Source of the DNA: a virus
DNA: 53,375 bases
Strand: one strand, 5' to 3'
Virus record (IMG/VR): IMGVR_UViG_3300036816_000028
Span: 1-53,375 of that record
Positions 5,405-34,057 of the stretch are shown in pieces; the first letter of the stretch is position 1, and each line of letters opens with the position of its first letter. A program made the position numbers and the translations under genes. The notes under the pieces were generated by a model. That model did not search any database. It saw nothing but the letters and a program-made list of their open reading frames with translations, and was not told the origin of the DNA.

Positions 5405-5611
5405 TCACCACTCCCCTTTGAAGTGCGGCGCGTTCGCCGAAAGGTACTGGTTGTCGGTCAGCGGACGGGCGATGGTCCAGGAGCGCCGCGGGTGAAGCGT
5501 CTTCGGCGCGTAGCAGTGTCGGCAGATCCACCGGCGCCAGCCGCGCGGTTCGAACGGGTGGGGCTCCACCTTGGACGGGTGGATCTTCGTAACGTCGGGC
5601 TTCCTCACCAT
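5405..5611 (-). CDS. small CxxC protein
   Basis: 68 residues with one CRHC pair (WICRHCYAPKTLHPR) and flanking His residues that could bind zinc. Its ATG at 5611 overlaps the stop of the upstream glycosyltransferase, and its stop sits at the start of the epimerase. No function is assigned. Confidence 0.6.
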   Translation of the reverse strand: MVRKPDVTKIHPSKVEPHPFEPRGWRRWICRHCYAPKTLHPRRSWTIARPLTDNQYLSANAPHFKGEW

Positions 5612-6213
5612 GCGCTCCCACTCCCCGACGTGTTGCCGCCGTGCCAGCGCCACTCCCAGGTCCGGGCGTAGTGGTGGACGAACTTGGCGCCTTCGTTCAG
5701 ACACTTGATCCACATGCCCCAGTCCTCACAGGGGTTGCCCGGATCGCCCCGGTGCTCGAACCCGCCGACGTGGTGGAGCAGGGACGTCCGCGCCAGGACC
5801 GTGATCGGGATGTAGTTCTGGTGGCTGCGGATCGTCTCCGCGTCGAACTCCCGGCCTTCGTACTGCGGGAACGGATCGGTTCCTACCGGCAGGTCGAACC
5901 AGGGGTACACCACGTCCGCGTTAGTGTCCCTGGCGGTCTCCAGGAGCGCTTCCACGTGGTGCGGGTACCAACGGTCGTCGGAGTCGAGAAAGGCCGCCCA
6001 CTCCGCCGTGACGCCCGCCAGGGCCCGGGTCCTGGTGACGGCCGCACCGTCGTGTTCGGTGTCCACCGCCACATGGATGGCGTCCACCGGCCGGGACTGC
6101 GCGGTGACGGAGACCAGGGCGTCGATCAGCATGCCGTTCGCCACGTTCGGCGCGTGGACGGGGATGACGGCAGCCACTTGGCCGCGCCGGTACGGCCACG
6201 CGGTCCCGTTCAC
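5605..6213 (-). CDS. GT-A family 2 glycosyltransferase
   Basis: 202 residues. The core motifs are AAVIPVHAPN at the first strand, VTRTRALAGV, the metal-binding FLDSDDRWYPHH and the downstream CEDWGMWIKCL. It is a paralogue in fold, not a copy, of the other two enzymes. GTG at 6213 overlaps the upstream TGA in a GTGA junction. Confidence 0.8.
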   Translation of the reverse strand: MNGTAWPYRRGQVAAVIPVHAPNVANGMLIDALVSVTAQSRPVDAIHVAVDTEHDGAAVTRTRALAGVTAEWAAFLDSDDRWYPHHVEALLETARDTNADVVYPWFDLPVGTDPFPQYEGREFDAETIRSHQNYIPITVLARTSLLHHVGGFEHRGDPGNPCEDWGMWIKCLNEGAKFVHHYARTWEWRWHGGNTSGSGSAW

Positions 6214-6899
6214 CCCTCCACCGCCCAGCGGATCAAGTCGGCATCGGCCGTCAGGCGTCCGTCCGCTTCGTACGCCAGCCAGAAGGCCCGGTCCGCGCTG
6301 TCCACCGCGGGCGCGTTGGCCTCCCGGTAGCCGTCGTCCATGGCGGCCTTCCCCGCGGCCGGGTGAAGGTGCTCGATCACCGTGTCCGGCAAGTAGACCA
6401 GCGTGCCCAGGGCTTCGCCCAGCGCCTTCCAGTAGTTGTCCAGGTACAGGTGGACCATCCCCGGCGGGACCATGGAGCGCAGCGCCCGGACGATCCGCGC
6501 GTCCATGAAGACGGCAGTCGGCAGGTTGGCTCCCTGGAGCAGGTCGTTCCCGTAGACGATCCGCGGCGTGCCGTCGGCGCCGTCCTTCAGGGCGTGAAGG
6601 ACGGCCAGATCCCAGCCGGGCGTGACCGGGAGGTGGTCGTCCCCCATGAAGCCCAGGGCGTCGTAGCTGTCCATGGCCTCCACCGCCATCATGTTCAGCG
6701 TCGGGCCCAGCCGCTGCCGGTGGATGACGGCCAGGTTGGACAGCCCCAACCGGCAGTAGTCCATGCACTTCGGGTCGTCGTCGTCCACGACGAACCGGAA
6801 GGACACGTCCGTCCCGGCGGCCGTCTCCTGCCAGGTCTTCTCCAGCCGGTCCGCGTTCTCCGGGCGCCCGCGGGACGGCACGATCACCAGCATCTTCAC
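6210..6899 (-). CDS. glycosyltransferase-like protein (GT-A fold)
   Basis: 229 residues. The N-terminal strand MLVIVPSRGRPENADRL, an acidic run VVDDDDPK (about 37-44) and GFMGDDHLPVTPGWD (about 83-97) fit a GT-A nucleotide-sugar fold with a DxD-like metal site. The GTG at 6899 forms a GTGA overlap and lies 5 nt after GGAGGAG; an ATG two codons later is also possible. It is more diverged than the other two, so donor and acceptor cannot be predicted. Confidence 0.72.
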   Translation of the reverse strand: MKMLVIVPSRGRPENADRLEKTWQETAAGTDVSFRFVVDDDDPKCMDYCRLGLSNLAVIHRQRLGPTLNMMAVEAMDSYDALGFMGDDHLPVTPGWDLAVLHALKDGADGTPRIVYGNDLLQGANLPTAVFMDARIVRALRSMVPPGMVHLYLDNYWKALGEALGTLVYLPDTVIEHLHPAAGKAAMDDGYREANAPAVDSADRAFWLAYEADGRLTADADLIRWAVEG

Positions 6900-7138
6900 G
6901 CGGGCTCCTCCACGATCGTCCAGACGTTGTCCCCGACGCCGGAGACAGTCCGCCGGACCATTCCCGCGGTGGACAGCCGGGTCAGGGCAAGGTAGGTGAG
7001 CTGGGGGGAGATCGACAGAGCCTCCGCGATCTCGTTCCGGCTCTTCGGTCCGTTCTCTGCCAGGAAGGCGCGGATCGTCGCGTCACGCCGGACGGTTGTG
7101 TCCGGCCTGGGGCGCCCGCGCTGGGCCTTTTCGGCCAT
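6896..7138 (-). CDS. small winged-helix DNA-binding protein
   Basis: 80 residues. A basic N terminus (KAQRGRPRP) precedes a winged-helix pattern: AFLAENGPKSRNEIAEALSI, recognition helix region LTYLALTRLSTAGMV, then a wing RRTVSGVGDNVW. It likely regulates transcription of the sugar block that follows it. The ATG at 7138 is chosen for AAAGGAG 6 nt upstream. Confidence 0.68.
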   Translation of the reverse strand: MAEKAQRGRPRPDTTVRRDATIRAFLAENGPKSRNEIAEALSISPQLTYLALTRLSTAGMVRRTVSGVGDNVWTIVEEPA

Positions 7139-7192
7139 CACCGGCTCCTTTCGTTTCATCGGTTCGCTTAACTGTAGCTTGACCAGCCGGTT

Positions 7193-7873
7193 TCAGTGGC
7201 TGGCGTACACCGGCTCCATGAAGCGGTAGAGCCCGTACAGGTCTCCGGGGGTGACGTATCCCGGCCAACGACCATCAACGAACAGGTGCCAGCCGCTGAC
7301 GTCAGCCGCGCGATCGGCCAATTGGCTGCAAATCATGTGGTTACTGGTCTCCACGAAGTGCTTCAGGCCCGGCGCGGGGATGTGGAAGCGGTGCGCCGCC
7401 AGCGCGAAGTAGTCGGCCACGCTGTAGGGCGTGCCGACCAGATCCAGGGCCGCCCCCGCCACGGCCGACCGCAAGTCGTCCGGGCAGCGGAGGTAGACCG
7501 GGTCCAGCCCGTCGTAGCGGGACAGCGGAGAGAGCAGGGCGCCCCCGGGCATGGCCTCCACGATCTTCATCCCGTCGGCCACGTCCCGGTCCTCTCCGCG
7601 GACGTGGATACCGGCCACGACGAAGGCGTGTTCGTAGTCGGCGAAGCCGTCACCGTTGAACCACTGGCCCAGCCGGATGGCCGCACCCCCGGCGCCGGTC
7701 ATGTGGACGATGCCGATGTCTCCGGGCTTCGGCACGTAGGGCAGAGTCCCACCCGCCATGCGCATAACCGCTTCGCTGATCTCCTCCACCTCTTCCTTCG
7801 GGGTTCCGGGAATCGTTCGCAACCGGTGCACGGCGGTTCCGAACGAAACGTCTTCCTTGTCGTCATCGGACAT
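7193..7873 (-). CDS. permuted papain-like hydrolase (YiiX/C92 type)
   Basis: 226 residues. The order GDIGIV..., a histidine in YEHAFVVAG (about residue 80) and a later cysteine in HMICSQLADRA (about residue 181) is that of circularly permuted papain-fold enzymes, where the His precedes the Cys. Family members hydrolyse amides or peptides, often on cell-wall or lipid-linked substrates. No signal peptide is visible. AAAGGA lies 7 nt before the ATG. A 17-bp-arm hairpin lies just upstream in its leader. Confidence 0.6.
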   Translation of the reverse strand: MSDDDKEDVSFGTAVHRLRTIPGTPKEEVEEISEAVMRMAGGTLPYVPKPGDIGIVHMTGAGGAAIRLGQWFNGDGFADYEHAFVVAGIHVRGEDRDVADGMKIVEAMPGGALLSPLSRYDGLDPVYLRCPDDLRSAVAGAALDLVGTPYSVADYFALAAHRFHIPAPGLKHFVETSNHMICSQLADRAADVSGWHLFVDGRWPGYVTPGDLYGLYRFMEPVYASH

Positions 7874-7904
7874 GATCGAGTCCTTTCGGGTCAGAAACCT
7901 GGAC

Positions 7905-7949
7905 GGCCCGCGGTGGTGAGGGTGGGAGGTCACCTCACGACCGCGGGCC
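7905..7949 (-). terminator. 17-bp-arm hairpin
   Basis: Arms at 7905-7921 and 7933-7949 pair with one mismatch and an 11-nt loop. It lies after the stop of the 31-residue peptide gene and 32 nt before the next ATG. There is no T-run, as is usual for high-G+C actinobacterial terminators; an attenuator is also possible. Confidence 0.6.
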
Positions 7950-7984
7950 GCTTGTTGCAGGTGGATCGGTGGTGCGTCGGCCGT

Positions 7985-8080
7985 TCAGCGGCCCTTGCCG
8001 TTGCCGGACTCCGTCGGACGCGGTCCGCTCGGCTCCGTGGTGCAGCCGCCCTTGCGGCAACCGGGGATCGAACAACTCAT
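7985..8080 (-). CDS. 31-residue Cys-rich peptide
   Basis: The frame starts MSCSIPGCRKGGC and ends in a Gly/Ser/Pro-rich basic tail. Three Cys in the first 13 residues could bind a metal or form a disulfide. GGAGGGG lies 3 nt before the ATG. The SD is complementary to an upstream CCCCTCC, so translation may depend on where the mRNA starts. Function unknown. Confidence 0.55.
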   Translation of the reverse strand: MSCSIPGCRKGGCTTEPSGPRPTESGNGKGR

Positions 8081-8083
8081 GGG

Positions 8084-8144
8084 CCCCTCCATCGGTAGAT
8101 TTCATTTGATCGAGACGAATATATCGCTCTACCGGCCGGAGGGG
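8084..8144 (-). promoter_or_regulatory. SD-sequestering leader hairpin with internal -10-like box
   Basis: In the leftward transcript CCCCTCC and CGGTAGA (8144-8128) can pair with TCTACCG and GGAGGGG (8099-8084). The last element is the SD of the 31-residue peptide gene. TATATT lies in the 28-nt loop and could act as a -10 box, so a transcript begun there would lack the blocking strand. Confidence 0.5.
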
Positions 8145-8149
8145 AAGAC

Positions 8150-8335
8150 CTAGCGCTTCGCGCCCTTCAGCTTCCGGTGCGCCGGGCAGATGTCGCGCCC
8201 CAGCTTGTCCCGGCGCCAGCCGTCGATCCGGGCGAGTTTTTGGGCTTGGACCGCGGTAAGTCGTGCCCATCCGGCGTGATGTTCCGCTGGGCACAGATCA
8301 CACCGGACCGTCACCCGGTCCTGGTTCCAGCTCAC
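8150..8335 (-). CDS. small zinc-ribbon protein
   Basis: 61 residues with RCDLCPAEHHAGW near the N terminus and DICPAHRKL near the C terminus, a probable four-ligand zinc site. The GTG at 8335 overlaps the upstream TGA (GTGA). The C terminus is basic (KLKGAKR). Role unknown; nucleic-acid binding is plausible. Confidence 0.6.
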   Translation of the reverse strand: MSWNQDRVTVRCDLCPAEHHAGWARLTAVQAQKLARIDGWRRDKLGRDICPAHRKLKGAKR

Positions 8336-8787
8336 CGGTCCCACTCCCGCAGTGCTTCGGCCGTCGGCGCGTCGGTCAGGGCCGCCTGTTCCAGTGCATC
8401 CCGGACCGGAGCCGACAGGAACCGGCGCCCTCCGCTGCCCGGGGAAGAGAGCAGGTGGACCGCTTCGAAGGCGTCCCTGGCACGCTGGACGCGTCCGCGG
8501 TCGTCCTCCCCGGGGACGTTCGACACGCCGGACGTGTGGACGCTGTAGCCCGTCTCTCCGAAGCCGTGGAGGAAGATCAGTACTTCGAACCACCGGCACG
8601 CCGGGCACGGCCTGGAGTCGGTGACGAAGTCCCCACCGTGGGTGTGCCGGTCCTGCTTCGTGCGCGCGGACCCTATGAGCTGGGCCCGGTGGACGTCCTC
8701 CGTACCGCCGTCCACCGGGACGGTCCAGTTCGTGGCGTACTGGCCGACGTCCTCCGGCCCGGGGAAGTGGTGCTCTGTCCTGGGCAT
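8332..8787 (-). CDS. hypothetical protein with CxxC
   Basis: 151 residues, not recognised. A CPAC pair (RPCPACRWFEVLIF) sits near residue 62, followed by a helical C-terminal half (RVQRARDAFEAVHLL, RDALEQAALTDAPTAEAL). AAGGAG precedes the ATG. It is translationally coupled to the zinc-ribbon gene downstream. Confidence 0.6.
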   Translation of the reverse strand: MPRTEHHFPGPEDVGQYATNWTVPVDGGTEDVHRAQLIGSARTKQDRHTHGGDFVTDSRPCPACRWFEVLIFLHGFGETGYSVHTSGVSNVPGEDDRGRVQRARDAFEAVHLLSSPGSGGRRFLSAPVRDALEQAALTDAPTAEALREWDR

Positions 8788-8825
8788 GGCTGTTCTCCTT
8801 CCTGGGTTCCTGTTGCTTCAGTGAA

Positions 8826-9020
8826 TCACGTGACCTGGCCGACGGCCTGGTCAGTGCGTCCGGACGTGATCTTCTGCGCGTACTCCCGCAGCGCCCAGCG
8901 GTAGACCACCGAGACGTCCACGCCCAGGCGTTCGGCTTCTTCCCGGAACACCTGGACGATCTCCGGCCGCTCCACCATGTGCACGTGTGCGGTGAGCTTC
9001 GCATTCCCTTTCGCTGCCAT
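8826..9020 (-). CDS. small DNA-binding protein, ribbon-helix-helix type
   Basis: 64 residues. A short strand HVHMVERP is followed by two helices (EIVQVFREEAERLG and VSVVYRWALREYAQK), the order of a CopG/Arc ribbon-helix-helix domain. There is no SD; TACGCT lies 7 nt before the ATG, so the mRNA is probably leaderless. It faces the RuvC-like gene and may bind the two palindromes between them. Confidence 0.55.
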   Translation of the reverse strand: MAAKGNAKLTAHVHMVERPEIVQVFREEAERLGVDVSVVYRWALREYAQKITSGRTDQAVGQVT

Positions 9021-9027
9021 ACCGGTC

Positions 9028-9057
9028 AGCGTACGCTTGACATGTCATAACGTGCAA
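9028..9057. promoter_or_regulatory. divergent promoter with two abutting palindromes
   Basis: AGCGTACGCT (9028-9037) and TGACATGTCA (9038-9047) are perfect 10-bp palindromes placed end to end. The first contains a TACGCT hexamer on each strand, a -10 candidate for both genes. A leftward -35-like TTGCAC (9057-9052) lies 18 nt from its hexamer. The second palindrome is an operator candidate. Confidence 0.55.
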
Positions 9058-9071
9058 CGGAAGGGCAAGTC

Positions 9072-9671
9072 ATGGCAGAGATCAGAATCGGAGGGCTCGA
9101 CCTCTCGATCACGTCCACCGGCTTCGCCCGGACCGACGGGACCACCGGCCTGGTGGTCACGAAGCAGACCGACGGGGACCGCCGGATCACCATCATCCGG
9201 GACGCGCTGATGGAGGCCGTCGGAGACGCCCAGGCGGTCGTCCTGGAGCGCGCACCGGCCACGCTGAAGGGGTACGCCGGAGAGCCGCTGCAACAGCTCC
9301 AGGGAGCCGTACGGGCGGCCCTGATGGACCGCGGAATCCCGTACGCCGTCGTCCCGCCGTCCACGCTGAAGCTTTTCGCGACCGGGCACGGCAATTCCCC
9401 GAAGTCGGAGCTGGCGGTGGCCGCGTACAAGCGAGCCGGTGTCGAGTTCGAGCGGGACAAGGGCGGGGACCAGTGCGACGCCTGGTGGCTCCGGATGGCC
9501 GGTCTGTCGAAGTGGGCCATGATCCCCTTCGTCCTGCCGAAGACCCAGACGGACGCACTGGACAAGGTGGTGTGGCCGGAGCCGAAGGCGGAAACGTTGG
9601 AGGACGCGTTCTCCGCGGTGTACCGCCGTGGATCGGAAGTCCCGGCCGCGGGCTTCGACCCCTGGGCCTGA
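9072..9671 (+). CDS. RuvC-like Holliday junction resolvase
   Basis: 199 residues. RNase H-fold acidic motifs are in place: GLDLSITSTGFA (Asp near residue 9), VVLERAP (Glu near 59) and KGGDQCDAWWL (Asp near 133-136), with KSELAVAA before the last. These enzymes cut branched recombination and replication intermediates, which tailed phages must remove before packaging. GGAAGGG lies 6 nt before the ATG. It is the only rightward gene in the left arm and ends in DPWA, like the convergent gene. Confidence 0.78.
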   Translation: MAEIRIGGLDLSITSTGFARTDGTTGLVVTKQTDGDRRITIIRDALMEAVGDAQAVVLERAPATLKGYAGEPLQQLQGAVRAALMDRGIPYAVVPPSTLKLFATGHGNSPKSELAVAAYKRAGVEFERDKGGDQCDAWWLRMAGLSKWAMIPFVLPKTQTDALDKVVWPEPKAETLEDAFSAVYRRGSEVPAAGFDPWA

Positions 9672-9677
9672 GCACGA

Positions 9678-9720
9678 CGAAGCCCCCACCCGGTCCCGGA
9701 AGGGATGGATGGGGGCTTCG
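9678..9720. terminator. bidirectional terminator hairpin
   Basis: CGAAGCCCCCA (9678-9688) and TGGGGGCTTCG (9710-9720) pair perfectly across a 21-nt loop. It lies between the convergent RuvC-like and ssDNA-binding-like genes. No gene is supported in the remaining 130 bases to 9852. Confidence 0.65.
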
Positions 9721-9852
9721 CTCTGCCCGTGGTTGGCTGCGCTTCCTTCAGCCGCAACGCCCGGCAGATCTGCGGACGGTGGACCGCAGGTTGTTCCAGC
9801 GGCCGGTGGTCAGAGCCTAGGTGAGTCACCGGCGGCCGGAACGGTCAGGGGC

Positions 9853-10521
9853 TTACGCCCAGGGGTCGGACGCCGGAGCGGCGGTCGGAGCCTGGCTGGG
9901 CGCGGACGGGGCGTCGGACCAGGCGTCGGCAGCGGCGCCGGTGGCGTCCTCCGCCTCCTTGGTCAGGAACTCGCTGGCGGCCTTCGCGTTGGCCGCCGCG
10001 GGGGTCCACTTCGCCGCGTAGTTGTAGCGGTAGAAGTCGGAGTTCCGGGCCTTCGTGCTCTCCAGGCGCTTGACCTGGATGTACGCCCCGCGCTCCAGCG
10101 TGGCGTTCCCGGCCTCCCGCATGGCCTTCACGATGGCCTTCTGCATGGAGCCCTTGACGTACAGGGTGCGCATGCCGTCGTCGTCCGGGACCGGCTTCTG
10201 GATGTACTGGTTGGTCTCCCAGGTGACGCCGGTGGCCTCACCCTGGATGTGGAGCAGGAGCTGGTTCGCGGGCTTCGCCGCGCGCCGCTGGTTCTCCCGG
10301 AGGTCGGAGTCCTTGACCTGCTTGTTCCCGACGAACCACAGGAGGTCTCCCGTGTTCATGTCGGTCTGCTGTCGCATCTCCCAGTCCACGATGGTGCCTT
10401 CGAAGACGAAGCCCACCTTCGGGAACTTCGCGGCGATGGAGCCGCCTCCGGACAGGAAGCTGGCCGCTTCCCTGTCCTCCGTGCCGCTGCCGTCGGAGCC
10501 GAACGGGTCGTCAGTGCTCAT
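9853..10521 (-). CDS. probable ssDNA-binding-like protein
   Basis: 222 residues. The body (about 25-155) has a beta-rich OB-like pattern: GFVFEGTIVDWEMRQQTD, NQLLLHIQGEATG, AYIQVKRLES. A low-complexity Ala/Pro tail ends in DPWA. Size, tail shape and position among recombination genes resemble phage single-strand-binding proteins, whose C-terminal tip recruits partners. It sits upstream of the RuvC-like terminator and downstream of the nuclease. The ATG at 10521 follows a GAAGGA site. The assignment rests on pattern and context only. Confidence 0.5.
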   Translation of the reverse strand: MSTDDPFGSDGSGTEDREAASFLSGGGSIAAKFPKVGFVFEGTIVDWEMRQQTDMNTGDLLWFVGNKQVKDSDLRENQRRAAKPANQLLLHIQGEATGVTWETNQYIQKPVPDDDGMRTLYVKGSMQKAIVKAMREAGNATLERGAYIQVKRLESTKARNSDFYRYNYAAKWTPAAANAKAASEFLTKEAEDATGAAADAWSDAPSAPSQAPTAAPASDPWA

Positions 10522-18780: not shown

Positions 18781-19254
18781 ATGACGATCAAGGCCATTGA
18801 AACGGCCTACGGCGGATGCCGGTTCAGGTCCCGTCTGGAAGCCAGGTGGGCGGTCTTCTTCGACGCCCAGCACTGGACGTGGACCTACGAACCGCAGGGC
18901 TTCACGCTGCCGTCGGGGAACTACCTGCCGGACTTCCAGGTGGCGCCGTACGGTGGGGACCCGGTCTGGTTCGAGGTGAAGGCGCCGGGTGTGCCGGACG
19001 ACGCGCGGTGGCCGGAGCTGGCCGCCGCTACCGGCGTCCTGATCATCGTGGCGAAGGGCATGCACCGGACCGGAGACGACTGTATGACGGCGCACAGCGC
19101 CGACGTGTACGCGCCCGGGGGTGCGGGCCACGGGCTGAAGCTGTGGATGAACGCCCCGCGGTCGGCCTGGGACGCTGCCTCCGGCGCACGGTTCGAGCAC
19201 GGGGAGTCCGGAGCAGCCGGACGCCGCTCCGGGCGCGGACGGAGGCGTCGGTGA
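18781..19254 (+). CDS. PD-(D/E)XK-type nuclease
   Basis: 157 residues. The motif order is GGCRFRSRLEARWAVF, then YLPDFQV (Asp near residue 58) and WFEVKAPG (E-x-K near residue 70). It looks like a small replication-associated endonuclease. The basic tail (GRRSGRGRRRR) may bind DNA. GAGGAAGAGAG precedes the ATG. It directly precedes the primase-polymerase frame, with a GTGA overlap. Confidence 0.7.
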   Translation: MTIKAIETAYGGCRFRSRLEARWAVFFDAQHWTWTYEPQGFTLPSGNYLPDFQVAPYGGDPVWFEVKAPGVPDDARWPELAAATGVLIIVAKGMHRTGDDCMTAHSADVYAPGGAGHGLKLWMNAPRSAWDAASGARFEHGESGAAGRRSGRGRRRR

Positions 19255-22200
19255 CCGCGGAGGCGGTGGAGTCCACCGCTGCCGGGCGGCCGACCGACCA
19301 GGAGGCGTCCCCGCTGAGCCTGGCCCACCAGGCGGAGCTGGAGGCGTCCTGCGTCGGTGAGGAGCACATCGCGGCGCGCGGCTACCGCACGCTGTACGGG
19401 TCGGACGAAGACCGCACGGAGCTTCGGGACCTGCGCATCCCCCGTTGGATGTGGCGGGAGCCCACCGCATTCCCGGGTCTGCTCATCCCGGAGTACCGGG
19501 CCACCGGGGAGCTGATCGGCTACCAGTGGAAGCCGGGTCAGCCGCAGCGCAACCCGGAGGGCAAGCCGGTCAAGTACGCCAGTGCGACCGGGGCGCCCAA
19601 CCACATGGACATCCCGCCCCTGGTGGCGGACAAGGTCCGTGACCCGAAACACTCGCTGTGGATCACCGAAGGCGTGAAGAAGGCCGACTCCCTGGCGACG
19701 CTCGGGAAGGCCGTCGTCACGCTGACCGGCGTCTTCAACTGGCGGTCCAAGCTGGGCACGCTGGGCGACTGGGAGGACATCCCGCTGAAGGGCCGGACCA
19801 TCGTGGTCTGCTTCGACGCGGACGCCCGGGAGAAGCGCACGGTTCTCCTGGCCATGGTCCGGCTGGGCCGCTGGCTGACGTCCAAGGGTGCGGCCGACGT
19901 CCGGTACCTGATCGTCCCGGCAGAGGTGGAGCAGGAGGAGGGCGCGCCCGTCGCGGTGAAGGGCGTGGACGACTACTTCCGAGCTGGGGGGACGCTCGAA
20001 GAGCTGGGCGCGTTCGCCACCCGGGAGGAGCCGGGCGGGGGCGGCGCCCAGGACGCCAGCTTCAGTGACGCCGTGATGGCCGACACCGTGTGCGGTGAGG
20101 CGCTGGAGGGGGTCTTCCGCTGGTCCGCAGGACTGGGGTGGATGACCTGGACCGGGAAGGTCTGGCGGAAGGCCACGGACGCCACCGTGACCGAAGCGGT
20201 ACGTCTGTGGGCGCTGGCCCAGTTCGAACGGGTGCTGGAGCGCCAGCGGGACGACCCGAACCGGGACCTGCGGGCCCAGATCGACGGCTGGCGGAGCGCC
20301 CTGGGAAAGGCCAAGCTGAACGCCCTGGTGGCGTTGTCCCGGGGCATCCTGGAAAGCGATCCGGGGGACTTCGACGCCGACCCGGACGCGATCAACTGCC
20401 CGAACGGCATCGTGGACCTGCGAACGGGCTTGATCGTCCCGCACGACCCGGACCGACTGATGACGAAGATCACCGGCGTGGACTACGTCAAGGACGCGGA
20501 GAGCACCGACTGGCTGAAAGCGCTGGAGGCGTTGCCGGAGGGCGTGCGGGACTGGTTCCAACTCCGCATCGGCCAGGCCGTCACCGGCCATCTGACGCCC
20601 GACGACCTGGCCGTCATCTGCCAGGGCGGAGGGGAGAACGGGAAGTCCACAGTCTTCAATGCGCTCCTGGTGGCCACCGGGCTGTATCACATCATGGTGG
20701 CGGACCGGGCCATGTTGGGGAACGCCAGCGACAACCACCCCACGGAGATGATGGACTTCCGCGGCGCGCGGCTGGCGATGCTGGAGGAGACGCCGGAGGA
20801 GCGGCACCTGGACACCAACCGGCTGAAGAAGCTGGTGGGCACCCGGGAGATCACCGCCCGCGGGATGCGCCAGGACGACGTGACGTTCGAGACGACGCAC
20901 TCCCTGTTCGTGAACACGAACTTCGAACCGCAGGTCAACGAGACGGACCACGGGACCTGGCGCCGTCTGGCGCTCCTGAAATTCCCGTACACCTATCGCA
21001 AGCCCCATGAGCCCCTGATGGGCCCGAACGACCGGCGGGCGGACCCGACGCTCCGGCAGCGGGTGGAGACCCCCGCGGTGATGGAGGCGGCCCTGGCCTG
21101 GGCGGTGGAGGGCGCTCAGCGCTGGTACGCGGCCGACCGCATCATGCCGGGCCTGCCGGACCAGGTCGTTGCCGACACGATGGAGTGGCGCCAGAAGTCG
21201 GACCCGATCCTGAAGTTCGCGAACGAGAACCTGGAGTTCGACCGGGAGAGCCACATCACCGGCGCGGAGCTGACCGACGCGTTCATGTCCTTCCTGGAGT
21301 CGGAGCGGTCGAAGCCGTGGTCCGCGAAGACCTTCGTCAGCCGCTTCGGTGGTCACGATCTGTGTTCACGGAACGGGGTCGCATACAAGTTGATCAAGGC
21401 GCGGGCGGGCCGTTCGACGCGGAAGCCGAACCTGTCCGTATCGGCGTCCTACAAGGCGTGGCTGGGGGTGCGCTTCACCACCCCGGACGACACCGATCCG
21501 TCTCAGGATGTGGGATTTTCCCCGGAATCCCCGAACGAAGATCCTTTCGGGGATTTTAAGAACCCGCAGGTGGAAGGGGGTGTTCAAGATCAGGTAACCC
21601 CAGTAACCTCACCGCCGGTTAAGCGCCCTAGTACGCGAGAAACGCAGCTTAACCGGCGTAGAGGTTACTCAGGTTACCGAAACGATGTCGTTTCGATAAA
21701 TGAAGATCATCAGGAAGAAGAAATGTCCGAAATGAGCGAATCCACGGAGCCCGTGTTCTTCGACCTGGAGGGCGCGAACGCCGACGAACTGTTCACCTAC
21801 AGTGATGACGGAGGGTCACCGCCGGTCGGCTTCGTCCGGCTGGCCGGTGCCGCCGTCGGAGAGGGTGAGATCCGCACCGGTGTGCCGGTGGAGAAGCTGG
21901 TCCGGATGCTGGAGGAGCGGCCGTCGGCGGGCCACAACATCCTGGGCTTCGACGGCCTGGCGCTGGCCTTCCACCACGGCATGGACTGGGAGAAGTTCTG
22001 CGCCGGTGCGGTGGACACGGAGATCAACGCCCGGCTGGACGACCCCCCGCGGTCCAAGGAGACCGGTGGGAGTGAGGACCGGTACGACCTGGACCACATC
22101 GCCGCGAAGCTGGGGGTGGGTGGGAAGACCGACTCCGCCAAGCGGCTGAAGGACAAGTTCGGCGGGTACGACCGCATCCCCGTGGACGACCCGGAGTACC

Positions 22201-23489
22201 ACGCGTACCTGAAGGGCGACGTGGCCGCCACCCGGTCGGTGGCCGGTCGGCTGCCGATGACGGAGTACGGCCAGCGGGAGCACCTTCTGGCGTCCCTGGC
22301 GGGACGGATGACGCTCAACGGCTGCCGGGTGGACGTCGCGCTCCTGCGGAAGCGCCTGAAGGACGGCCAGGCACGCAAGCGGGCGGCCATGGAGGAGCTG
22401 GCGGACGGCCAGGGTCTTCCGCTGGGGCGCACCGTCATGCGCGGCCGGGGTGCGGCGAAGGCGCCGGTGTTCGAGCCCTTCAGCTCCCCTTTCAACACCA
22501 CGGAGGGGAAGGAGTGGCTGGCGGACCTATGGCAGCGCTTCGGGGTGGTCCGGCCGCCGGTGACCGACAGCGGGGCCCTGTCCACCGCCGCGGAGCGGCT
22601 GAAGGCTGTGGCGGACAACCCGCGGTGCCCGGCGGAGCTGAAGCACGTCCTGGAGCTGATGGAGGTCATCACCACCACCAGGACCGTCTACCAGACCGCT
22701 GCCACGTACATGACCGCCGAAGGCCGGGTGCACCCCATGGTCTCCATGCGCCAGGCGTCGGGCCGGTGGTCGCTGACGAAGCCGGGCCTGACCGTCTTCG
22801 GGAAGCGCGGCGGGCGCCACGTGGAGCGGGAGATCATCATTCCGGAGCGGGGCCATGTGGTCATCACCTGCGACCTGGCACAGGTGGACATGCGCGGGGT
22901 GGCGGGCCACTGCCAGGACCCGGCGTACATGGAGCTGTTTCAGCCCGGCAAGGACATCCACCAGGAGATCGCGGACATGCTGGGCATCGCCCGGCAGGAC
23001 GCGAAAGCGTTCGGCCACGGGTACAACTACGGGCTCTCACTGAACGGCGCGGTCCGCCGCGGTGCGGACCTGGAGCTGGCAAAGGTCTTCTACCAGGGCA
23101 TGGTCACCCAGTTCCCGGTCAAGGAGGAGTGGACGAAGAAGATCCAGTCCATGGGGGCCCACGGGGACCTCCTGGACAACGGCTTCGGGCGCAAGATGCG
23201 CTGCGACCCGGAGAGCGCCTTCACCGTCGCGCCCGCGCTGATGGGCCAGGGCAGTGCCCGGGACATCACCATGGAGGTCCTGATCCGGCTCATGACGGCG
23301 CACCCGGAGTACCGGCCGTTCCTGCGGATCTACGTCCACGACGAATTCGTCTTCTCCGTTCCGGAGGCCATGGCGGAGGAGGTCGGAGCGGAGATCGAGA
23401 AGGCGTTCACCTGGGAGTGGCGCGGCGTGCCGATTCTTTGTGATCGCACTGCACCCGCGGAGAGCTGGGGTGCGGCCAGTGCGAAGTGA
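19251..23489 (+). CDS. primase/SF3 helicase-family A DNA polymerase fusion
   Basis: One uninterrupted frame of 1412 codons. N-terminal half: TOPRIM-like WITEGVKK (about 137) and VVCFDADAR (about 186); SF3 helicase Walker A GGGENGKST (about 460) and MLEETPEER (about 510). C-terminal half: exonuclease motifs FFDLEG (836), HNILGFD and YLKGDVAAT (986); polymerase motif A CDLAQVDMR (1204), motif B RQDAKAFGHGYNYG (1248) and motif C VHDEF (1361). All proofreading and polymerase residues are present. GTG at 19251 lies 5 nt after GGAGG. Residues about 744-826 are a low-complexity linker. An in-frame ATG at 21723 after AGGAAGAAGAA could give a separate polymerase. Confidence 0.85.
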   Translation: MTAEAVESTAAGRPTDQEASPLSLAHQAELEASCVGEEHIAARGYRTLYGSDEDRTELRDLRIPRWMWREPTAFPGLLIPEYRATGELIGYQWKPGQPQRNPEGKPVKYASATGAPNHMDIPPLVADKVRDPKHSLWITEGVKKADSLATLGKAVVTLTGVFNWRSKLGTLGDWEDIPLKGRTIVVCFDADAREKRTVLLAMVRLGRWLTSKGAADVRYLIVPAEVEQEEGAPVAVKGVDDYFRAGGTLEELGAFATREEPGGGGAQDASFSDAVMADTVCGEALEGVFRWSAGLGWMTWTGKVWRKATDATVTEAVRLWALAQFERVLERQRDDPNRDLRAQIDGWRSALGKAKLNALVALSRGILESDPGDFDADPDAINCPNGIVDLRTGLIVPHDPDRLMTKITGVDYVKDAESTDWLKALEALPEGVRDWFQLRIGQAVTGHLTPDDLAVICQGGGENGKSTVFNALLVATGLYHIMVADRAMLGNASDNHPTEMMDFRGARLAMLEETPEERHLDTNRLKKLVGTREITARGMRQDDVTFETTHSLFVNTNFEPQVNETDHGTWRRLALLKFPYTYRKPHEPLMGPNDRRADPTLRQRVETPAVMEAALAWAVEGAQRWYAADRIMPGLPDQVVADTMEWRQKSDPILKFANENLEFDRESHITGAELTDAFMSFLESERSKPWSAKTFVSRFGGHDLCSRNGVAYKLIKARAGRSTRKPNLSVSASYKAWLGVRFTTPDDTDPSQDVGFSPESPNEDPFGDFKNPQVEGGVQDQVTPVTSPPVKRPSTRETQLNRRRGYSGYRNDVVSINEDHQEEEMSEMSESTEPVFFDLEGANADELFTYSDDGGSPPVGFVRLAGAAVGEGEIRTGVPVEKLVRMLEERPSAGHNILGFDGLALAFHHGMDWEKFCAGAVDTEINARLDDPPRSKETGGSEDRYDLDHIAAKLGVGGKTDSAKRLKDKFGGYDRIPVDDPEYHAYLKGDVAATRSVAGRLPMTEYGQREHLLASLAGRMTLNGCRVDVALLRKRLKDGQARKRAAMEELADGQGLPLGRTVMRGRGAAKAPVFEPFSSPFNTTEGKEWLADLWQRFGVVRPPVTDSGALSTAAERLKAVADNPRCPAELKHVLELMEVITTTRTVYQTAATYMTAEGRVHPMVSMRQASGRWSLTKPGLTVFGKRGGRHVEREIIIPERGHVVITCDLAQVDMRGVAGHCQDPAYMELFQPGKDIHQEIADMLGIARQDAKAFGHGYNYGLSLNGAVRRGADLELAKVFYQGMVTQFPVKEEWTKKIQSMGAHGDLLDNGFGRKMRCDPESAFTVAPALMGQGSARDITMEVLIRLMTAHPEYRPFLRIYVHDEFVFSVPEAMAEEVGAEIEKAFTWEWRGVPILCDRTAPAESWGAASAK
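21526..21555. repeat. 10-bp-arm dyad in the linker
   Basis: AATCCCCGAA (21526-21535) and TTCGGGGATT (21546-21555) pair perfectly over a 10-nt loop, inside the primase-polymerase linker. Confidence 0.7.
21593..21678. repeat. 32-bp-arm inverted repeat, origin-like
   Basis: Left arm 21593-21624 and right arm 21647-21678 match at 28 of 32 positions, around a 22-nt centre. All three matching blocks share one axis at 21635.5. Each arm contains two GTAACC-type units 9 bp apart. The arms are rich in A/T compared with flanking DNA. Located in coding sequence. Confidence 0.8.
21678..21695. repeat. 8-bp-arm palindrome CGAAACGA-TG-TCGTTTCG
   Basis: Perfect 18-bp dyad abutting the large inverted repeat; ideal size and symmetry for a dimeric DNA-binding protein. 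It lies 28 bases before a possible internal start at 21723. Confidence 0.7.
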
Positions 23490-32227: not shown

Positions 32228-34057
32228 ATGCCGTGGTACAACGCCCTGGGCTTCGGCCGCCGACCGGCGCCGCCGGACGTCCCGGCTTCCCTGACCGCGG
32301 CGGCTGCGCCCGTCAAGGGCCCGCAGTCCCAGTTCCTCCAGCACACCCAGAACTGGCAGAACGAAGCCTGGGACTTCTACGACGCCAACGGGGAGTACAA
32401 CTACGGCGTCACCTGGCTGGCCAACATGATGTCCCAGGTCCGACTCCGCGCCGCCCGGTTGGACCCGGAACTGGACGAACCGGAGATCCTGAACGACGGC
32501 GCAGCCGCGGAGATCATCGCCAAGATGAACGGCGGTGTGGGCGGCCAGTCCCAGATGATGCGGTCGCTGTCCACCCAGCTCTCTGTTCCCGGTGACTGCT
32601 ACCTGATCGGGGAGCAGACGGGCCCGGCGGAGAAGTGGACCGTTCGGTCCGTGGACGAAGTCCGGGCGCAGTCTGGCCGCTTCCAGGTCGTGACCGGGCG
32701 TACGCCCAGCGTGGAGTGGTCCGACCTCCCGCCGGACTCGATTCCGGTACGGATCTGGCGTCCGCATGAGCGTTGGCACCACATCGCCGACAGCCCGTCC
32801 CGCTCCGCCCTGTCCACCATGCGGGAACTGGAACTGGTCAACCGGCACATCACCGCCCAATACCTGTCCCGGCTGGCGTCGGCCGGTGTGCTGATCCTGC
32901 CGGAAGAGGTGACCTTCCCGGTGCGGGAGGAGTTCGAAGACGCTCCGGACCCGTTCGTGGCGGAGTGGGTGGAGGTGGCGCGGGAAGGCATCGCCAACCC
33001 GGGCACGGCGTCCGCCGTTGTTCCGATCCCGATCCGTGTCCCCGGTGAGTACGTGGACAAGATCAAACACCTGGACTTCACGCTCAAGATCGATGACAAG
33101 ATCATCGAAAAGCGGGACAGCGCGATCAACCGCCTGGCCACCCAGATGGACATCCCGACCGAAGTCCTGACCGGCATGGGCAAGGTCAACCACTGGACCG
33201 CCTGGCAACTGGACGAAGGCAGCCTGAAGACGCACATTGCGCCGCTGGCGGAGGTCATCTGCTACTCCCTGACCACCGGGTACTTCCAGGCGCGGCTGGC
33301 CGCCTCCAACGTGCCAGACCCGGAACAGTACGTGGTTTGGTACGACATGTCCGAACTGGCCATCCGGCCGGACAACAGCACTAACGCTCAGGCCGCCTAC
33401 GACCGTCTGGAGATCTCTGGGTCCGCGCTGCGTCGTGAGACCGGCTTCGGTGAGGACGACGCTCCGACCACCCAGGAGCTGGAGGCCATGACCCAGAAGG
33501 CCATCTTGCGCGAGGCTCCGGCGTCCCCGATGGCTGCGGTGGCGGCCGACGCCCTGGCCGGGAAGCATGTCTTCGCCGATGCCATGGGCGGGACCGCGGC
33601 ATCCGGCACCGGCGGGGAGGTGGGCACCAAGCAACCCGCGGAGTCGTCCGACGACGGAGCACCGCCGGGGCCGCCGTCCACGTCTCCGCCGTCCCAGGCC
33701 GCACCGAAGGACACGCCTCCGTCCACATCCCCGCCCGGCGCGGAGCGTGCGTCGGCCGCGGTGATCCGCGCGTCCGCCCAGGCGTCCGCCGTCCACGTGC
33801 TGCGCTACTCCGTGGACGCCGTACCGCAGCTTCTGCATCCACCGGGTGTGTGCTCCACGCACGCGTATTCCTGCCCGTTCACACACAGTGCCTGGGGCCG
33901 CTGGCTTCCGTCTCTGACCACCGGGACCTACGAAGTCCGCCTGGACGCCTTCGGACAGCTCCGGGTGGGCCGTTTCGCGCCGGAAATGGACACGTTGGGC
34001 TGGATCACCACCACAACGGCGGTGGGTCGGAAGGGGACCAACTATGCCCGCGCATGA
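32228..34057 (+). CDS. portal protein
   Basis: 609 residues, the usual portal size. Between terminase and the MuF/protease gene. NEAWDFYDANGEYNYGVTWL (about 43-62), RLRAARLDPELDE, WRPHERWHHIADSP and the long helix region with PTEVLTGMGKVNHWTAWQLDE (about 317-337, split across the core) match actinophage portals. It forms the dodecameric DNA entry ring at one capsid vertex. The C-terminal ~140 residues are Pro/Ala/Ser-rich with an unrecognised Cys/His end. ATG follows GGGAGGC. Confidence 0.82.
   Translation: MPWYNALGFGRRPAPPDVPASLTAAAAPVKGPQSQFLQHTQNWQNEAWDFYDANGEYNYGVTWLANMMSQVRLRAARLDPELDEPEILNDGAAAEIIAKMNGGVGGQSQMMRSLSTQLSVPGDCYLIGEQTGPAEKWTVRSVDEVRAQSGRFQVVTGRTPSVEWSDLPPDSIPVRIWRPHERWHHIADSPSRSALSTMRELELVNRHITAQYLSRLASAGVLILPEEVTFPVREEFEDAPDPFVAEWVEVAREGIANPGTASAVVPIPIRVPGEYVDKIKHLDFTLKIDDKIIEKRDSAINRLATQMDIPTEVLTGMGKVNHWTAWQLDEGSLKTHIAPLAEVICYSLTTGYFQARLAASNVPDPEQYVVWYDMSELAIRPDNSTNAQAAYDRLEISGSALRRETGFGEDDAPTTQELEAMTQKAILREAPASPMAAVAADALAGKHVFADAMGGTAASGTGGEVGTKQPAESSDDGAPPGPPSTSPPSQAAPKDTPPSTSPPGAERASAAVIRASAQASAVHVLRYSVDAVPQLLHPPGVCSTHAYSCPFTHSAWGRWLPSLTTGTYEVRLDAFGQLRVGRFAPEMDTLGWITTTTAVGRKGTNYARA

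Follow-up and report, generated by a model that had tools for sequence, protein, structure and literature searches.

In the Sulfolobus plasmid pRN1, a 100-bp stem-loop lies directly 3′ of the gene for a replication protein with a superfamily 3 (SF3) helicase and a winged helix; this stem-loop is needed for replication and is functional when moved (Berkner 2014, PMC4234260; Joshua 2013, PMC3869888). The authors report the absence of iteron structure, and specific binding by the replication protein was sought and not detected (PMC4234260). Deletions of 3 bp in the loop abolish replication and the substitutions tested are tolerated (PMC3869888), as fixed spacing would predict. The alpha protein of phage P4 is also an SF3 helicase, and its C-terminal winged helix binds the repeats of the origin (PMC4234260). 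In phage-inducible islands, two sets of iterons flank an AT-rich segment immediately 3′ of rep, and rep–ori segments replicate plasmids (Fillol-Salom 2018, PMC6092414); this organisation has been said to be common to no other known replicon (PMC6092414). The passages considered from a 2011 survey of actinobacterial integrative elements name prim-pol modules and describe no such origin (PMC3218068).

The window analysed here, by which the whole stretch of 53,375 bases is meant, is the virus record IMGVR_UViG_3300036816_000028; it is linear, may be incomplete, and contains portal, terminase, and tape-measure genes. One of its genes fuses a primase-like region, an SF3 helicase, a linker, and a family-A DNA polymerase in a single frame (Table 1), and the linker harbors an 86-bp dyad that, judged by sequence comparison, is probably the phage replication origin, bound by the protein whose gene contains it (a rough probability of 80%). 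The start of the fusion gene is an inferred GTG within a frame open from 18816. The N-terminal part of the fusion protein matches DUF3854, and Pfam detects no prim-pol (AEP) family in the fusion protein or the upstream ORF, and no nicking Rep endonuclease domain of the rolling-circle type in the fusion protein. Past the dyad, the in-frame ATG at 21723 could be an internal start giving a separate polymerase product.

Table 1. Positions of the fusion gene, its domains, and the repeat elements of its linker in the window.
Feature	Position	Strand	Basis or remark
Upstream ORF, 157 aa, phrog_21138	18781–19254	+	Overlaps inferred fusion-gene start
Fused primase-like/SF3 helicase/linker/family-A DNA polymerase gene	19251–23489	+	Pfam DUF3854, D5_N, DUF5906, DNA_pol_A
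D5_N and SF3 helicase core	20115–20966	+	Pfam D5_N (residues 289–425), DUF5906 (residues 458–572)
Winged-helix domain at helicase C terminus, inferred iteron reader	21168–21479	+	AlphaFold2, Foldseek, partial Mantel test and scan
10-bp perfect inverted repeat (arms 21526–21535/21546–21555)	21526–21555		Overlaps codons of conserved DPFG peptide
CAAGATC element adjoining left arm	21585–21591	+	Unmatched on right side in window
Dyad left arm, iterons GTAACC at 21594–21599 and 21603–21608	21593–21624	+	Repeat search
Inner inverted repeat GCCGGTTAAGC/GCTTAACCGGC (21614–21624/21647–21657) around central TACGCGAG-like segment	21614–21657		Centred comparison, 55 loci
Dyad right arm, inverted iterons GGTTAC at 21663–21668 and 21672–21677	21647–21678	+	Repeat search
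8-bp dyad CGAAACGATGTCGTTTCG (arms 21678–21685/21688–21695), adjoining right arm	21678–21695		Repeat search
AGGAAG ribosome-binding-like sequence, then in-frame ATG at 21723	21712–21725	+	Sequence
Family-A DNA polymerase domain	22491–23447	+	Pfam DNA_pol_A (residues 1081–1399)

The large dyad begins 114 bp past the winged-helix segment, within the fused frame, and consists of two 32-nt arms, 88% complementary, around a 22-nt loop. Each arm carries two GTAACC iterons at a pitch of 9 bp and the arms are inverted, with the outer edges of the four copies 84 bp apart; the inner inverted repeat is a candidate melting region. In some related loci (e.g., L004, L011, L055, and L064 of the survey described below), the CAAGATC element beside the left arm belongs to the dyad. 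A first-pass annotation of this DNA had listed three inverted repeats with arms of 10, 32, and 8 bp, GTAACC pairs 9 bp apart in the large one, and linker DNA less G+C-rich than its flanks. All of these are present, the G+C content being 0.53 at 21500–21799 versus about 0.65–0.72 across most of the remaining gene. The large dyad is the top ungapped dyad of the window (score 20; runners-up 15), and its single-strand fold has a z value of −6.4, equaled by none of 200 shuffles. The pair GTAACN4GTAAC was found nowhere else in the window with one mismatch allowed, and near relatives of the linker DNA are absent from annotated phages at the blastn level.

The likeness to pRN1 and pRN2 is low in sequence conservation and high in structural conservation: an inverted repeat of about 100 bp directly follows, on the 3′ side, the gene of an SF3 helicase that ends in a winged helix, and each arm contains a pair of iterons spaced at 9 bp. 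Each pRN1 arm repeats TGTCCA at 9 bp (TGTCCATAG TGTCCA), and the same four-copy finder gives the same layout; pRN2 repeats GGAC(C/A)G at 9 bp (GGACCGATA GGACAG). The pRN1 element differs in that it is non-coding DNA, is accompanied by an AEP primase, and spans 94 bp versus 84 bp in the window. P4 crr, annotated as required in cis for replication, is located 46 bp beyond the end of alpha, and its two type-1 repeats, 9 bp apart, face two inverted ones. Inverted sets of short repeats are found 3′ of the initiator in both phages, but those of the window sit inside the fused frame and not past the stop codon, and the crr pitch is 9 bp on one side and 18 bp on the other, an arrangement missed by the motif finder. 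P4 further differs in its repeat, TGTTCAC(C/A), its two crr copies, and a distant separate ori with further repeats, none of which forms a helicase coding linker; in the window, with its GTAACC iteron and a single occurrence of the pair, neither the type-1 repeats of P4 (TGTTCACC) nor a second distant ori is seen, in a record that may be incomplete. Iterons bound by an initiator within its own coding sequence are known from the origin in the lambda O gene, although that initiator is unrelated, is not itself a helicase, and reads a different repeat layout.

The window shares with phage-inducible islands the two sets of iterons and their location, but its central segment is only moderately AT-rich (local GC 0.53) and the island origin is non-coding; the comparison covers layout. 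The present comparison calls into question the uniqueness claimed for the island organisation (PMC6092414). In the Bordetella phage BPP-1/BIP-1, a large dyad with TTGCCTCGT at 9 bp in both arms is found 3′ of the primase gene, but it lies 467 bp past the stop codon and has a span of 104; it is a candidate stem-loop by sequence and may differ from the stem-loop depicted in PMC4234260.

A search of viral contigs yielded 15 loci, with helicase, linker, and polymerase in one open frame in 14 of them, and a linker dyad is present at the same place in all 15 with differing letters, the iterons being GTAACC in the window, GTTCCC in L003, GTTCCG in L009 and L013, and GTACC in most. The survey was enlarged by 16 loci from bacterial genomes and 80 viral loci, some redundant with one another or with the first 15. 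The four-iteron layout occurs just 3′ of the helicase winged-helix domain at 74 of 101 related loci (some redundant), in the reading frame when helicase and PolA are fused and often just past the stop codon when they are not; iteron sequence is highly variable between loci, and all four copies change together. A motif finder allowing one mismatch per copy detected the motif at the helicase end of 73 of 100 loci, versus 3 of 100 after shuffling, with outer spans that peak at 85 bp. The perfect four-copy motif is found at 55 of 101 loci in a 0.56-kb foreground around the helicase 3′ end, versus 6 clusters in 1,043 kb of background from these loci. Across 64 non-redundant dyads, within-arm identity is 0.64 at a lag of 9 versus 0.26 ± 0.02 in shuffled sequences, and near the shuffled level at other lags. 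The first-pass annotation had named a lack of dyad conservation in homologous fusion genes as grounds for giving up its origin proposal; for the large dyad, the outcome was the opposite, with position, pitch, and span kept in fused and unfused relatives.

Hosts of the named loci include Streptomyces, Micromonospora, Asanoa, Nonomuraea, Microtetraspora, and Mycobacterium. In small Streptomyces plasmids (14–32 kb), the helicase is about 45% identical and is not fused to a polymerase, and in all five plasmids examined the top dyad of the locus sits in the non-coding DNA beyond the helicase gene, about 40–65 bp after its stop; the iterons keep the 9-bp spacing, and each arm has one further copy, the third. 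The fused state forms a cluster in a 95-helicase tree whose deep branches are poorly supported, and unfused relatives outside the cluster bear the dyad. Because these unfused relatives carry the same element just past the stop codon, the dyad probably predates the helicase–polymerase fusion and is now read through as linker peptide. The motif is absent from the DNA examined in a fused clade (L072, L073, L076, L078, L079, L082, L099, and L118), so it is either not obligatory or has moved outside that DNA. In L030, L110, L114, and L115, it is found 1.5–2.8 kb upstream of the helicase end rather than on the 3′ side, as though the origin had shifted across the gene, and five loci carry variant motifs with a 10-bp pitch or a longer span. 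No such dyad follows the primase in Samy, TG1, phiSASD1, Tallboi, or Gretchen (phiC31-type and other actinophage primase regions). It is about as likely as not that one origin design, with four iterons in two inverted pairs of 9-bp pitch and a nearly fixed span, read by the winged helix of the helicase itself, is common to SF3-helicase replicons from archaeal plasmids (pRN1 and pRN2) to Gram-negative and actinobacterial phages and plasmids, and that one phage lineage fused its helicase and polymerase across this origin, with the active origin dictating the linker.

Given its in-frame position and the low complexity of the encoded peptide, the dyad might be a by-product of coding for a repetitive linker peptide (VPxVP...GTGGT), with no function as DNA. 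This reading is largely refuted and retains next to no probability. Synonymous-codon shuffles of the linker (n = 300) give a mean dyad score of 8 and a maximum of 18, codon resampling gives a maximum of 14, and shuffling abolishes the dyad in the window as well as in the majority of relatives, the exceptions being L005 and L007, whose scores fall inside the synonymous-shuffle range, and L010 and L015, which fall inside the codon-resampling range. Moreover, the dyad persists while the peptide changes, from VTPVT...GYSGY in the window to VPPVP...GTGGT in other loci, and non-coding copies exist in plasmids. The linker peptide appears to follow the dyad DNA passively, and the same three observations support the earlier suggestion that DNA function may dominate in the linker.

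The hairpin could instead act as RNA, slowing ribosomes between domains or setting the level of an internally started polymerase, as the very stable fold and the ribosome-binding-like sequence and ATG beyond the dyad might suggest, but this is very improbable. Only 18 of 102 cross-arm mismatches are G.T, and this lack of enrichment makes the constraint look like one on DNA, not RNA. RNA pairing needs agreement between the arms only and would not demand like copies within one arm at exactly 9 bp, whereas the within-arm copies agree too, as expected for repeated binding sites of one protein. In the unfused plasmids, furthermore, the dyad lies outside the gene, beyond a terminator-like hairpin seen by eye (and not scored by the terminator scan). 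Rfam gives no match in the window, and an RNA element was rejected on this ground together with the mismatch pattern and the non-coding copies.

The protein that reads the iterons is likely to be the C-terminal winged helix of the helicase and not its ATPase domain. An AlphaFold2 model of this domain has a pLDDT of 85, and its top Foldseek matches, at modest E-values, are the RFX winged-helix DNA-binding domain and the C-terminal part of the C962R primase-polymerase. Partial Mantel tests across 56 loci show a correlation of iteron distance with winged-helix distance when the helicase core is controlled (partial r 0.39, permutation p 0.0005), versus 0.02 (p 0.36) for the helicase core when the winged helix is controlled. 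A sliding scan along the protein shows that the correlation peaks at the recognition-helix/wing region and falls on both sides; since the columns nearest the dyad correlate less but are gap-rich, physical linkage is less likely as an explanation but may add to the correlation. The first-pass annotation had compared the locus to iteron origins of P4-type helicases, and this comparison stands for the layout, which matches pRN1, P4 crr, and the phage-inducible islands, but the likely reader is the winged helix and not the ATPase. The tracking of the helicase winged helix by the iteron sequence also speaks against a role of the dyad in recombination, partition, or packaging. Sites of this sort often have inverted repeats around a short asymmetric centre, and the small plasmids carry recombinase genes downstream; against this, the layout accompanies serine-type and tyrosine recombinases alike and is always tied to the helicase end, and a recombination event within the fused frame would disrupt an essential gene. 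Such a role is rated as highly improbable.

For the origin reading, we infer the following mechanism, from iteron binding through the paired assemblies and melting to the point where replication begins. The winged helix at the end of the SF3 helicase would bind the four iterons as two inverted pairs, and two helicase assemblies would form face to face across the central segment, an arrangement suggested by the four sites in two inverted pairs and their nearly fixed span. The helicase assemblies would then melt the central segment, and priming, together with the family-A polymerase, fused or separately translated, would start synthesis. The cumulative GC skew has its turning points near 17 kb (window) and near 26 kb (the Streptomyces plasmid pS1D4-14.2), 3–4.5 kb upstream of the dyads. 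In the plasmid, the turn coincides with a change of gene strand from leftward to rightward near 26 kb, some 3 kb ahead of the dyad, so GC skew does not tie the origin to the dyad. Near rep genes, iterons commonly serve as operators as well, and the dyad could be a binding site for the helicase or another phage regulator, serving autocontrol or blocking transcription into the polymerase, with the origin elsewhere. The winged-helix coupling would allow this, as it identifies the probable reader and not the consequence of binding. A regulatory site is nonetheless unlikely: the dyad is found at the 3′ end of the gene or just past it rather than in a promoter position, a scan of 21300–21900 gave no sigma-70-like promoter (the only promoter type sought), the iteron pair has no second occurrence in the window, and pRN1 needs its counterpart of the dyad in order to replicate, also when that element is moved (PMC4234260).

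If the dyad is an origin, its rule can be read from sequence, as two inverted pairs of iterons, 9 bp apart and about 85 bp across, near the end of a helicase gene, and this rule would locate origins in many phages and plasmids. The views of a stem-loop origin (pRN1) and of an iteron origin (P4 and the phage-inducible islands) would become one design, many natural pairs of winged helix and iteron would be available for solving the recognition code, and the fusion gene would clearly exemplify how an origin evolves within coding sequence once two genes have fused.

The conserved unit is the large dyad only, so that of the stacked dyads earlier proposed as a candidate origin, the large one is upheld by its conservation and the two smaller ones, which are also weaker, fall outside the unit. 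The 10-bp repeat was rejected as part of the origin, since among 33 fused loci it is found in one, the window itself. The 8-bp dyad (CGAAACG-N4-CGTTTCG) also occurs right after the right arm in three related genomes (L049, L057, and L007/L043), and 85 exact stretches of it are among the matches listed for the whole viral collection; it may be an accessory site.

Several further features were seen at individual loci. Purine-rich stretches precede an ATG at similar places past the dyad in L003, L007, L009, and L011. Beyond the dyad, DPF(G/A) recurs in the linkers of GTACC-type relatives (e.g., L006, L010, and L015), for example as DPFGDDPFAE; these linkers are otherwise variable and acidic, and the motif is possibly a short protein-binding motif. 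In L016 (33–5765), the fusion ORF has 1,910 codons versus about 1,410, with an insertion of several hundred codons that is possibly an intein or an extra domain, and in L013 helicase and polymerase are in overlapping frames (5476–8535 and 8415–10388), through a natural split or a frameshift or assembly error. L023/L129 is pS1D4-14.2, a linear, plasmid-prophage-like Streptomyces plasmid with the same fusion gene. In the window itself, a 1,079-codon ORF at 34044–37283 matches RNA ligase families at its N terminus, followed by portal/head-maturation families.
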